From NCBI GenBank assembly GCA_013388645.1, contig JACAEV010000244.1:1-32946 (forward strand): DNA of 32,946 nucleotides, written 5' to 3'. Positions 29,551 to 32,407 of this stretch are shown one piece after another (within the stretch, counting starts at the first letter, position 1; each line of letters opens with the position of its first letter). The DNA comes from Syntrophaceae bacterium (GTDB taxonomy: Bacteria > Desulfobacterota > BSN033 > UBA1163). A model generated the notes under the pieces. The model was not told the origin of the DNA. It saw only the letters and a list, made by a program, of their open reading frames with translations, and ran no database searches. The position numbers and the translations under genes are program-made.

Positions 29551-29579
29551 TTGACAAATCAAATTTTTACTGTTTTAAT
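29551..29579 (+). promoter_or_regulatory. Promoter of the DUF3842-cooT unit
   Basis: TTGACA (29551-29556), a 17-base spacer and TTTAAT (29574-29579) match the sigma70 consensus at 11 of 12 positions. Counting seven bases on, transcription should start at or next to A29586, the first base of the hairpin leader. Confidence 0.75.
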
Positions 29580-29585
29580 AAGATT

Positions 29586-29637
29586 AGCCACGAAGGTTAA
29601 GATCCCTTGAAAGGGGCAGCCGCAAGTGGCTTTTTTT
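29586..29637 (+). promoter_or_regulatory. Structured leader 1 (GCCACGAAGG hairpin with U-run)
   Basis: The transcript would begin with AGCCAC (29586-29591), which pairs with GUGGCU (29626-29631). Inside lie an asymmetric GAA/GCAA loop, a four-pair helix GGUU/AGCC (29595-29598 with 29618-29621), a second asymmetric loop, and a CCCUU/AGGGG stem closed by GAA. Seven U follow (29631-29637), so the fold can act as an intrinsic terminator about 50 bases into the message. The same architecture recurs at 30321. I match it to no known riboswitch class. Confidence 0.6.
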
Positions 29638-29653
29638 GTTGAATGGAATGGGG

Positions 29654-30082
29654 ATGGATAAAAGGAGGAAGTCTATTGCTGTGATCGATGGCCAAGGAGG
29701 GGGGATAGGGAGCGCCATGATTAAGCGTCTCCGGGAAACACTCGCCGAGGAGGTAGAGGTCATTGCTTTGGGAACGAATGCGATGGCAACGGGAATGATG
29801 TTAAAAGCCGGGGCCAATAAGGGAGCTTCGGGAGAAAATGCCATAGTTCAGACGGTCACGAAAGTCGACCTCATTATTGGAACAACAGCGATTGTATTGG
29901 CCAACTCCATGATGGGAGAATTAACCCCTAAAATGGCGGAAGCGATCGCCTCTTCTCCAGGGGTAAAATGTCTTCTCCCTTTAAAAATACCCGAAGTGGA
30001 AATCATTGGAACCCCTAAAGAGCCCCTTCCTCACTTAATTGATCAACTGATCAAACGAATTCAAGAAATGATCCATTCATAA
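29654..30082 (+). CDS. DUF3842 family protein
   Basis: This small cytoplasmic protein (142 residues from this ATG) matches the DUF3842 family. IAVIDGQGGGIGSAMIKRL is the glycine-rich, Rossmann-like nucleotide-binding start, and ALGTNAMATGMMLKAGANKG and NSMMGELTPKMAEAI are conserved stretches. Its function is unknown. Several starts are possible. The frame runs back to TTG 29636 inside the U-run of the leader, and ATGs stand at 29648 and 29654; the latter best fits the family's short N-terminus. A purine-rich AAAAGGAGG lies just inside the gene and not in front of it. Its stop overlaps an in-frame ATG of the cooT reading frame (TAATG), so the two are translated together. The pairing with a nickel protein suggests a role in metal handling, which is inference. 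Confidence 0.82.
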   Translation: MDKRRKSIAVIDGQGGGIGSAMIKRLRETLAEEVEVIALGTNAMATGMMLKAGANKGASGENAIVQTVTKVDLIIGTTAIVLANSMMGELTPKMAEAIASSPGVKCLLPLKIPEVEIIGTPKEPLPHLIDQLIKRIQEMIHS

Positions 30083-30093
30083 TGGAGGAAACC

Positions 30094-30282
30094 ATGTGCG
30101 AAGCCAATGCGTACTTAGTAAAAGAAGGAAAGGAAGAGCTTATCTTGGAGGATCTCTCCATCCTCCGACCTGAAAAGGATGAACTCTACCTCCAAAATAT
30201 CTTTGGAGAACAGAAACGGATTAAGGCTCGAATTAAAGAGATGAATCTCATCGATCATCGTATCCTTCTCGAAGAAGGATAA
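30094..30282 (+). CDS. cooT: CooT family nickel-binding protein
   Basis: This 62-residue protein begins MCEANAYL, the CooT signature, with Cys2 the expected nickel ligand at the homodimer interface. LEDLSILRPEKDELYLQNIFGE and the KARIKEMNLIDHRI end fit the family throughout. CooT is a nickel chaperone first described with the carbon monoxide dehydrogenase of Rhodospirillum. An upstream ATG at 30082 is in frame, but it would bury Cys2 internally. GGAGG lies five bases before the ATG at 30094, which is therefore the start. It follows the DUF3842 gene in one transcript. No CO dehydrogenase gene lies in the window. Confidence 0.88.
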   Translation: MCEANAYLVKEGKEELILEDLSILRPEKDELYLQNIFGEQKRIKARIKEMNLIDHRILLEEG

Positions 30283-30320
30283 TTTTTAATATAACGATTT
30301 ACGTTTCTTAACTTTAAAAT

Positions 30321-30369
30321 AGGCCACGAAGGCTGTTTTCCCAAAGAAGTTGGGAAGTCATCGTGGCCT
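30321..30369 (+). promoter_or_regulatory. Structured leader 2 (GCCACGAAGG hairpin) before the nikMK gene
   Basis: AGGCCACGA (30321-30329) pairs perfectly with UCGUGGCCU (30361-30369). Inside lies GGCU (30331-30334), which can pair with AGUC (30356-30359), then a UUCCCAA/UUGGGAA stem with an AGAAG loop. It shares the 5' segment GCCACGAAGG and the three-tier design with leader 1, and the middle helix keeps pairing through changed bases. A -10-like TAAAAT ends just before it (30315-30320), with no good -35. It could also act as the end of the cooT message; a weak U-rich tract follows. Confidence 0.55.
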
Positions 30370-30419
30370 ATTTTATTTCTCTGCAAAGATGGGGCCTCAC
30401 GCTAAGCCTGTGGTTCATT

Positions 30420-30482: not shown

Positions 30483-31898
30483 ATGCATATCCCGGATGGA
30501 TATTTAGGGCCAGAAACGTACGGAGGTCTTTGGGCGATCATGGTGCCCATCTGGATGGTTGCTTCAAAAAAGGTGAAACAAAGTCTTGAAGCAACACGTG
30601 TTCCCTATTTAGCCATGGCATCTGCATTCAGCTTGGTCGCAATGATGTTCACTATTCCTCTTCCAGGAGGGACAACTGGCCATATCACTGGTTCAACTTT
30701 GGTCGCTGTGTTGTTGGGACCTTGGGCGGCTCTCCTTGCCGTCTCTGTAGCCCTAATGATCCAAGCATTGGTCTTCGGTGACGGAGGTATCACCTCCATC
30801 GGAGCAAATTGCTTCAATATTGCCTTTATCGGAGCCATGGTGGGTTATGGAATTTATAGGTTCATCACTCGTATCGGCCGTCCATTCATCAAGCAGCCAC
30901 CAGACAATGAAAAAAAGTTTGGTGCTTCAAACCTGTTTCTCCATCTTACCGGTGCAGGAATTGCCTCTTATCTTTCAATCAATTTGGGAGGTCTTTTCAC
31001 GGCCATTGAGCTTGGCCTGCAACCATTGCTTCATTCGGGAGGCTCCGGAGCCTCACTCTATTTTCCCTTTCCCCTGAAAATGGCCATCCCTGCTGTCATG
31101 ATTCCTCATCTGACCGCAGTTGGCCTCCTTGAAGTGACAGTGACCGTTCTCGTGCTCCTGATCATTTTTAAATCGCAGCCCGCCTTGGTCAGTCGGATGA
31201 AAACTATCTGTTTTGTTTTAATGTTCATCTTTATCGCTGTCTTTCCAACTTTGGTCTTTGCCCATGATTTCTGGATTGAGAAAAAAGGCAACGACTTTAT
31301 GGTCGTGTATGGACATGGAAGCCAAAGGCTGGAATTCGAACCTACAAAAATAAAGACCGTTAAAGCCTTCGATTTTCGAGGAAAAGAGGTCGAAGTGACC
31401 AAGGAAAAGAAAGCAACGGGCGTACTTCTAAAACCCATTGAATCGCCGTCTTTATTTTTTGTTGAGATTGATGATGGTTACTGGTCAAAGACCATCTATG
31501 GTTGGAAGAACCTTCCCAAAACCAAAGCAAGCCGAGTGGTTGAATCTTTCCGTTCTTTCTATTATTCCAAGGCTCTACTTTCTTGGGGGGAAGCCGCTCA
31601 AAGACCCCTGAGTGATGCAAAACTTGACCTCCTCCCCCTTGAAAACCCTTTTGAGTTAAAGGAAGGAAATGTTTTATCCATTCGGGTTCTGTATCAGGGC
31701 AAACCGATTTCAGAATTGGAAGTTGAAGGAGGGGACCATAAAAAAATAACCACGACAGACAAGGAGGGGGTAGCGAAACTAAAGATATCAAAAGGCCATC
31801 AGGTTTTTTCCGTGAATTACAAAGAACCAATAAAAAATGATCCAGATGCGGATTTATTGCGCATCACCTCCACGCTGACTTTTGAGGTGACAAAATGA
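30483..31898 (+). CDS. NikM-NikK fusion: ECF nickel transporter S component with DUF4198 domain
   Basis: This 471-residue protein joins two nickel-transport parts. Residues 1 to about 235 are NikM/CbiM, the membrane metal-binding component: it starts MHIPDGYLGPE, and His2 and His67 (in GGTTGHITG) are the ligands that, with the free N-terminus, hold Ni(II). From Met239 a signal-like hydrophobic helix leads into AHDFWIEKKG (His261) and a periplasmic DUF4198 domain, the NikK part normally encoded apart. The reading frame extends back to GTG 30363 in the leader hairpin, but metal binding needs the MH start, and AGGAGG lies six bases before the ATG at 30483. nikL overlaps its end by four bases. 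Nickel rather than cobalt is favoured by the NikK/NikL partners and CooT. Confidence 0.85.
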   Translation: MHIPDGYLGPETYGGLWAIMVPIWMVASKKVKQSLEATRVPYLAMASAFSLVAMMFTIPLPGGTTGHITGSTLVAVLLGPWAALLAVSVALMIQALVFGDGGITSIGANCFNIAFIGAMVGYGIYRFITRIGRPFIKQPPDNEKKFGASNLFLHLTGAGIASYLSINLGGLFTAIELGLQPLLHSGGSGASLYFPFPLKMAIPAVMIPHLTAVGLLEVTVTVLVLLIIFKSQPALVSRMKTICFVLMFIFIAVFPTLVFAHDFWIEKKGNDFMVVYGHGSQRLEFEPTKIKTVKAFDFRGKEVEVTKEKKATGVLLKPIESPSLFFVEIDDGYWSKTIYGWKNLPKTKASRVVESFRSFYYSKALLSWGEAAQRPLSDAKLDLLPLENPFELKEGNVLSIRVLYQGKPISELEVEGGDHKKITTTDKEGVAKLKISKGHQVFSVNYKEPIKNDPDADLLRITSTLTFEVTK

Positions 31899-32407
31899 AA
31901 AAGGTGAACATTGACAAAAACTCCATCGTCGCAAGAACAGGAACTTACTCTTTCCAATCTCTCTTCATAGCAGTTCTTTTTCTTATTCTCCTTAACGCCT
32001 CTGCCTACGCTCATTCCATCAATTATGAGGTCCAGCAGAAAGGAATTTCAGTAAGGGTCTTTTATACTGAAAAGGACCCTGCCAGTTATTCACAATATGA
32101 GCTGTTCGGACCAGGGGATACGGAACCTCATCAGATAGGGAGAACTGACAAAAATGGATTTGTATCCTTTTTTCCAGAAAGACCTGGAATCTGGAAAATC
32201 AAGGTTTGGGGAGAATCGTCTCACGGGTATCATGGAGTCACGATTGATGTGAAGGTGGATGAAGCCCTCAATCTCCAATCTTTCAGTAAGCCTCTGGCGG
32301 CAACCCATACAAAATTAATTGTTGGAATCAGCCTCATCTTTGGCATTTTCGGCATTTACGCCCTCTTAAAATCAAGAAGGGCACAGGACAAAGGTAAAAA
32401 ATCTTAA
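31895..32407 (+). CDS. NikL-like nickel ECF transporter accessory protein
   Basis: This 170-residue protein has an N-terminal signal or anchor helix ending in SAYAHS, with His40 the likely first mature residue. A periplasmic beta-sandwich follows, in which GRTDKNGFVSFFPERPGIWKI (spread over residues 82-102) and HGYHGV are recognisable, then a C-terminal helix (141-158) and a basic cytoplasmic tail. This pattern is that of NikL, the extra component found with NikK and NikM in nickel ECF importers. The ATG overlaps the stop of the nikMK gene (ATGA), so translation is coupled. His40, His110 and His113 could help pass metal to NikM. It was named from layout and motifs, and no direct test of function is implied. 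Confidence 0.75.
   Translation: MKKVNIDKNSIVARTGTYSFQSLFIAVLFLILLNASAYAHSINYEVQQKGISVRVFYTEKDPASYSQYELFGPGDTEPHQIGRTDKNGFVSFFPERPGIWKIKVWGESSHGYHGVTIDVKVDEALNLQSFSKPLAATHTKLIVGISLIFGIFGIYALLKSRRAQDKGKKS

Follow-up and report, generated by a model that had tools for sequence, protein, structure and literature searches.

RNA can sense nickel and cobalt, as in the NiCo (czcD) riboswitch family, a large four-way-junction RNA of efflux genes. Many anaerobes need nickel for enzymes such as CO dehydrogenase and hydrogenases yet lack NikR, and we found no account of their control of nickel uptake in the literature consulted. NikR acts through the DNA operator GTGTTAC-N13/14-GTAACAC. In Desulfovibrio, this regulator controls the [FeFe] hydrogenase genes hydAB, which encode a nickel-free isozyme, together with nickel uptake (PMC545781). 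In the BglG/LicT-RAT, ANTAR (NasR/NasT/EutV), PyrR and HutP systems, a short leader hairpin is read by a protein and competes with an overlapping terminator. The locus described here contains two leader hairpins that resemble the latter systems in architecture and are linked to nickel by their genes; both belong to a family that has not been described previously.

Leader hairpins at a nickel locus

The gene context that had been proposed from the letters of the window (the whole 32,946-nucleotide stretch of DNA analyzed) is borne out by domain searches. The first set consists of a DUF3842 gene (29654..30082, plus strand; likely ATG start at 29654; Pfam PF12953, 1.2e-52) and cooT (30094..30282, plus strand; Pfam PF10133, 9.3e-25), the latter encoding a member of a Ni-binding protein family that starts with MCEANAY and carries the cysteine at position 2. 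The second set includes a nikM-nikK fusion for an ECF nickel/cobalt transporter (30483..31898, plus strand; Pfam and NCBIfam), in which CbiM (NikM) and DUF4198 (NikK-like) are joined in a single gene, and a gene for a NikL-like ECF transporter subunit (31895..32407, plus strand) whose resemblance to NCBIfam NF058648 (E 8e-15) is under the cut-off of that family. The predicted fold of the window CooT matches the CooT structures 6fan, 5n76 and 6y8v (Foldseek), indicating an ordinary family member. CooT binds Ni(II) with a Kd of 9 nM, and the only role given to it in the same review is in CO dehydrogenase maturation (PMC6006190).

Each gene set is preceded by a hairpin that runs into a U-rich tract and thus looks like an intrinsic terminator. 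Hairpin A (29586..29637, plus strand) has a basal stem (29586-29591/29626-29631), an upper stem and a U-tract (29631-29637), and closes with seven T; hairpin B (30321..30378, plus strand) has a basal stem (30321-30329/30361-30369) followed by the U-rich tract ATTTTATTT (30370-30378). The two hairpins lie and fold as the sequence-only reading had claimed, with energies of -18.6 kcal/mol for A (z -2.2) and -27.6 kcal/mol for B (z -5.9), and have in common GCCACGAAGG (29587-29596 in A, 30323-30332 in B) and the 3' arm GTGGC. A sigma-70 type promoter (29551..29579, plus strand; TTGACA at 29551-29556, a 17-bp spacer, TTTAAT at 29574-29579) ends 7 nt from the start of hairpin A, and by this spacing the transcript should start with the hairpin itself. 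Hairpin B is located 40 nt 3' of cooT and 114 nt 5' of nikM, with no consensus promoter just upstream, and may therefore act between cooT and nikM inside one operon.

This arrangement is conserved in the family of the source genome. In 15 of the 15 family genomes that have DUF3842, hairpin A is found at the same spot right behind the promoter, with a TTGACA/TATAAA arrangement (TTGACA-N17-TATAAT type) directly 5' of it, and GCCACGAAGG...GTGGC-T6/7 lies between promoter and DUF3842 in all of them while the upper stem is freely divergent. In relatives, counterparts of hairpin B separate cooT from the nickel transporter that follows; other copies stand at the head of TonB-ExbB-ExbD/TonB-receptor operons, in many cases as two hairpins ~60 nt apart in tandem, or of operons for a binding protein, FecCD, an ATPase and FmdE.

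It had been conceded beforehand that the ten shared bases alone could occur by chance, and they are indeed near chance level, with 8 copies of GCCACGAAGG in the 3.95 Mb genome. The whole motif (covariance model R2, E<=0.05) has exactly 4 copies in the source genome, two in the window and two in tandem on contig C225, where they precede a methyltransferase/TonB-receptor operon; this count, the conservation in 15 of 15 family genomes and the same gene classes in other families and phyla exceed chance, in line with the argument from the sequence that shared position, structure and context make chance less likely. The tandem pair (G000:C225:8087-8197, L081) consists of GCCACGAAGG... and ACCACGGAGG..., ~60 nt apart, and the first 3' arm could alternatively pair with the second 5' arm. 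Three simpler accounts of the shared sequence were considered and rejected. Chance sharing is contradicted by the other single genomic copies of GCCACGAAGG, which are mostly coding and not hairpins; an uptake sequence or dispersed repeat by the lack of over-representation of the 10-mer in the genome; and an upstream ORF or Shine-Dalgarno reading of GAAGGTGA by relatives without a conserved start codon or frame (by eye).

A search of the window against Rfam 15 produced 0 matches at the gathering threshold and none relevant on the leaders at E<=10, in agreement with the earlier statement that no known NiCo or cobalamin riboswitch fits. Among ten strong loci, Rfam detected only a tRNA, and a further search at E<=1 found none; weak matches to plant miRNA families and similar were far under thresholds and were dismissed. 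The NikR operator is absent from both window leaders.

Two structures on one strand

Across copies, the whole element is 26 to 58 nt long, with varying spacing between the half-sites, and has the architecture of an intrinsic terminator, a GC-rich hairpin followed directly by a U-tract on the sense strand. The basal stem is 92.9% paired, compared to 31-59% when slid, with compensatory changes at 4 of the 8 pairs (G-C/A-U, A-U/G-C, C-G/U-A, A-U/G-C), and the inner part of the hairpin folds better than shuffled sequences (mean z -2.4). Apical AGAA/UGAA tetraloops account for 45 of 79 tetraloops and are absent from 40 other tetraloop terminators of the same loci. In 102 copies, the U-tract contains a mean of 5.9 T in 8 nt and positions 8-10 of the 5' arm read A101/G102/G102, a conservation that is partly selected among matches, the 5' arm and the T-run being included in models R1 and R2; the terminator partners of positions 8-10 pair only in ~77%. 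That these positions stay A-G-G while their partners drift indicates a constraint on the 5' strand other than the terminator.

The 5' arm itself corresponds to a 4-bp mini-hairpin, N0-R1-C2-C3-[A-Y-G-R-A]-G9-G10-Y11-N12, which occupies the same 5' strand as the terminator, so that the two structures are mutually exclusive. The mini-hairpin, a putative antiterminator or receptor, reads AGCC [ACGAA] GGTT in hairpin A (29586..29598, plus strand; stem 29586-29589/29595-29598) and GGCC [ACGAA] GGCT in hairpin B (30322..30334, plus strand); the 13-mer that covers it is AGCCACGAAGGTT. Pair 1-11 (GC72/AU34/GU30/AC1) is 99.3% paired, compared to 86% in shuffles, with one exception in 137, and pair 0-12, of which position 0 lies outside R1 and R2 and position 12 is weakly weighted, is 81% paired, compared to 55%, with five pair types. 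The pairs one and two steps farther out fade to background, which limits the stem to 4 bp. If position 0 is allowed only T as its terminator partner, pair 0-12 still forms in 75%, compared to 55% (0/5000 shuffles), and five C-G pairs at 0-12 are unusable by the terminator; thus, the covariation of the mini-hairpin is independent of the terminator. A formal count with an independent tool agrees: the covariation score of the mini-hairpin is 0.353, against 0.206 (0/500 shuffles), and all slid versions stay at <=0.074. The check for covariation that was suggested with the original observation thus came out in favor of paired structure, albeit not where it was expected: the middle helix (GGUU/AGCC in one hairpin, GGCU/AGUC in the other), taken as kept pairing in the sequence-only reading, is not general and is missing, for example, in L020, L021, L023 and L036, and the covarying parts are the basal stem and the mini-hairpin inside the 5' arm.

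As in antiterminator leaders, a recognition hairpin supported by covariation excludes the terminator, and we read the two structures as a terminator/antiterminator switch. The forced fold of the mini-hairpin has a stability of about -1 to -2.5 kcal/mol, compared to -19 and -28 for the window terminators, so a stabilizing partner would be expected.

It is very unlikely that the element is instead a DNA operator, that is, an inverted-repeat site of another nickel repressor at the transcription start. GCCACGAAGG does overlap the start predicted for the DUF3842 leaders, and many copies contain it as one arm of a palindrome, but the free half-site spacing does not fit such a site, hairpin B has no adjoining promoter, and covariation of the mini-hairpin would be meaningless for DNA. 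In addition, the DUF3842 leaders have a degenerate 3' arm, yet U-tract and pairing persist.

Gene linkage and co-occurrence with DUF3842

The covariance-model search proposed earlier for homologous hairpins retrieved many. Model R1, built from 40 family hairpins, scores hairpin A at 51.4 bits and hairpin B at 45.4 bits (R2 scores A at 43.2 bits) and has matches in 110 of the 395 genomes of the phylum sample; the element is also present in Bacillota and Nitrospirota. Nickel-type genes (NikM/CbiM, TonB/ExbBD, FecCD, FmdE, CooC and DUF3842-CooT were counted) lie on the same strand within 3 kb downstream of 59 of the 82 copies outside the family, compared to 4 of 82 in the divergent control, and several of the about 80 retrieved non-family loci that lack such genes are cut by contig ends. 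In Bacillota, the element is found upstream of DUF3842 (L148, L175, L304) and of CbiM operons (CbiMNQO), an SBP_bac_5 type (peptide/nickel-type) ABC transporter, Peripla_BP_2 proteins, FmdE and a CooC-like ATPase; Heliobacterium, a cultured carrier, has an R2 match 5' of cbiM. In two Desulforudis-type genomes of this set, it is located 5' of an operon for an FlpD-like protein and [FeFe]-hydrogenase (L310:14337-17179, L312:3-2693). The NikR regulon, with [FeFe] hydrogenase as the nickel-free isozyme and NikMNQO-type transporters, is a gene set that overlaps these targets (PMC545781).

Several loci show further associations. The order DUF3842-cooT-hairpin-binding protein-CooC, found in L112 (1501-3048) and L210 (2532-4385), ties FecCD-type uptake to CO dehydrogenase maturation. 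Proteins with an FmdE domain, among them one that ends in a zinc finger, accompany FecCD transporters under the hairpin (L084:46-657, L085, L213, L280) and may be nickel-related rather than molybdenum-related. A Clostridia genome (G410, L299-L305) has 12 copies of the element, some of them 5' of S-layer/DUF4430 surface proteins.

That these hairpins are ordinary intrinsic terminators sharing sequence through common descent appears extremely unlikely. The U-tracts and strong hairpins would fit, as would the location of hairpin B shortly after cooT and the bidirectional nature of some copies; such terminators, however, would not account for the leader position directly behind a promoter, for a 5' arm and loop conserved across phyla while upper stems diverge, for the specificity in gene class and direction, or for the absence of the element from all 18 NikR+/DUF3842- control genomes of other phyla. 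The assignment as a nickel-linked cis-regulatory RNA, conserved with covarying stems beyond the source genome, is well supported and this part of the sequence-only reading stands; the ligand-binding, riboswitch-like character that it implied is not supported. The anatomy, in which a terminator competes with a mini-hairpin whose pentaloop is of an invariant type, and the co-occurrence with DUF3842 suggest a terminator/antiterminator switch that a trans-acting protein would read, rather than a metal-binding RNA.

Among the 395 genomes, 103 have both hairpin and DUF3842, 7 the hairpin only, 35 DUF3842 only and 250 neither. The corresponding counts are 108/2/122/163 for CooT and 6/104/177/108 for NikR, which the hairpin largely excludes; among the CooT-containing genomes the hairpin still tracks DUF3842 (103/5/35/87; an odds ratio of 51). 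The association of hairpin and DUF3842 persists inside variable families as well, with a Mantel-Haenszel odds ratio of 6.8 (p 0.002; permutation p 0.001) over hand-curated strata, the other Fisher tests ignoring phylogeny. In other phyla, 20 of 27 genomes with DUF3842 contain the element. In the family, R2 detects it in 15 of 17 genomes, and the two without it (G006 and G015) are also the two without DUF3842; NikR is encoded in 0 of the 13 family genomes searched, compared to 6 of the 6 searched genomes of other families of the same class. R2 recovered 7 of the 35 DUF3842-containing genomes missed by R1, leaving 28 of 138 in the phylum without a match to either model. Among the hairpin-only genomes, G081 (95% complete) has CooT and the hairpin and lacks DUF3842; in G203, the contig starts where its genus-mate G179 has DUF3842-cooT; the remaining cases are incomplete or weak. 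Given that no more than about 10 of the 80 named loci have a hairpin just upstream of DUF3842, the co-occurrence is not mere regulon membership and argues for a trans-acting role. By this co-occurrence, DUF3842 is a candidate for the cognate RNA-binding regulator. Its AlphaFold model (pLDDT 94) is a high-confidence prediction of a Rossmann-like domain, in which the loop DGQGGGIG is invariant; no PDB entry matches by sequence, and structural matches are generic Rossmann-like ones at a TM of about 0.5, a fold without close PDB match that speaks against such a role. No mention of DUF3842 was found in the searched literature.

These data bear on two further possibilities. An RNA-only nickel (or cobalt) riboswitch, in which the leader would bind the metal and shift between mini-hairpin and terminator with DUF3842 as a passenger or regulon member, would accord with the conserved loop and stem, the metal-linked genes and the NiCo precedent. 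We consider it decidedly unlikely: what is conserved is a 4-bp hairpin of only 13 nt, the terminator is as short as 26 nt in one copy and offers no pocket there, and the occurrence of the element is tied to a genomic DUF3842 gene that is usually not itself under the leader. Alternatively, CooT might be the RNA-binding nickel sensor and DUF3842 an accessory protein or enzyme. Its Ni(II) affinity given above, its presence in 108 of 110 hairpin genomes and the retention of CooT with the hairpin in G081 are compatible with this proposal, and the first description of CooT, by Timm et al. in 2017, reportedly noted an Sm-like fold. Nevertheless, it seems unlikely, given that 122 genomes have CooT and no hairpin, that the hairpin follows DUF3842 where CooT is present, and that Foldseek returns other CooTs and then, only weakly, a RimM-like protein, so that the Sm-like fold is unsupported by this comparison. 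The CooTs of hairpin-bearing genomes outscore those of NikR genomes against the Pfam CooT family, a possible sign of a distinct CooT subfamily that goes with the element. No link of CooT to RNA control was found in the accessible literature.

Proposed attenuation mechanism and comparison with known systems

Both hairpins, in our preferred reading, probably act as a transcription attenuator of a nickel regulon, with the mini-hairpin held by DUF3842 together with CooT at low nickel and the terminator formed otherwise. As RNA polymerase moves past the leader, the 4-bp hairpin with its conserved pentaloop would form from the initial 13 nt (N R C C [A Y G R A] G G Y N). Unaided, this weak structure would yield to the long hairpin on the same 5' strand, which with the U-tract would form an intrinsic terminator, and transcription would end after about 45-50 nt. 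When nickel is scarce, an RNA-binding regulator acting in trans, which is most likely DUF3842 with the Ni-binding CooT, would hold the mini-hairpin, prevent the terminator and allow the uptake and maturation genes to be read through; with sufficient nickel, the regulator would release it and the genes would be off. The location of DUF3842-cooT under their own leader in the source family would provide feedback. This polarity is suggested by the geometry, in which the mini-hairpin excludes the terminator, and by the logic of uptake genes. The chances appear about even that, more broadly, nickel-responsive antitermination by a new RNA-binding regulator, DUF3842, with CooT as the sensor operates in Desulfobacterota, Bacillota and Nitrospirota and replaces NikR in many anaerobes.

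For many NikR-less, nickel-dependent anaerobes, the element points to a regulon, to a hairpin of 13 nt as its recognition site and to a protein that may regulate it. It would give DUF3842 a testable function and CooT a second role, and it helps in the annotation of TonB/FecCD/FmdE transporters, which are probably nickel systems.

The NikR system differs in that it relies on a DNA operator, whereas the element appears to act at the RNA level as an attenuator; 104 of the 110 carrier genomes have no NikR. The NiCo riboswitch is likewise an RNA linked to Ni/Co, but the window leaders have no Rfam match. To our knowledge, this would be the first nickel-tied RNA attenuation system other than a riboswitch. 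The closest parallels, the BglG, ANTAR, PyrR and HutP types, share with it the control of several scattered operons and possible autoregulation; in contrast to these, none of their homologues is implicated here, the motif, R-CC-AYGRA-GG-Y, is smaller and different, the apparent signal is nickel, and DUF3842, as the candidate regulator, is predicted to be Rossmann-like. On present evidence, the element would represent an attenuator family of its own, outside the BglG, ANTAR, PyrR and HutP types, for which DUF3842 is a new regulator candidate.
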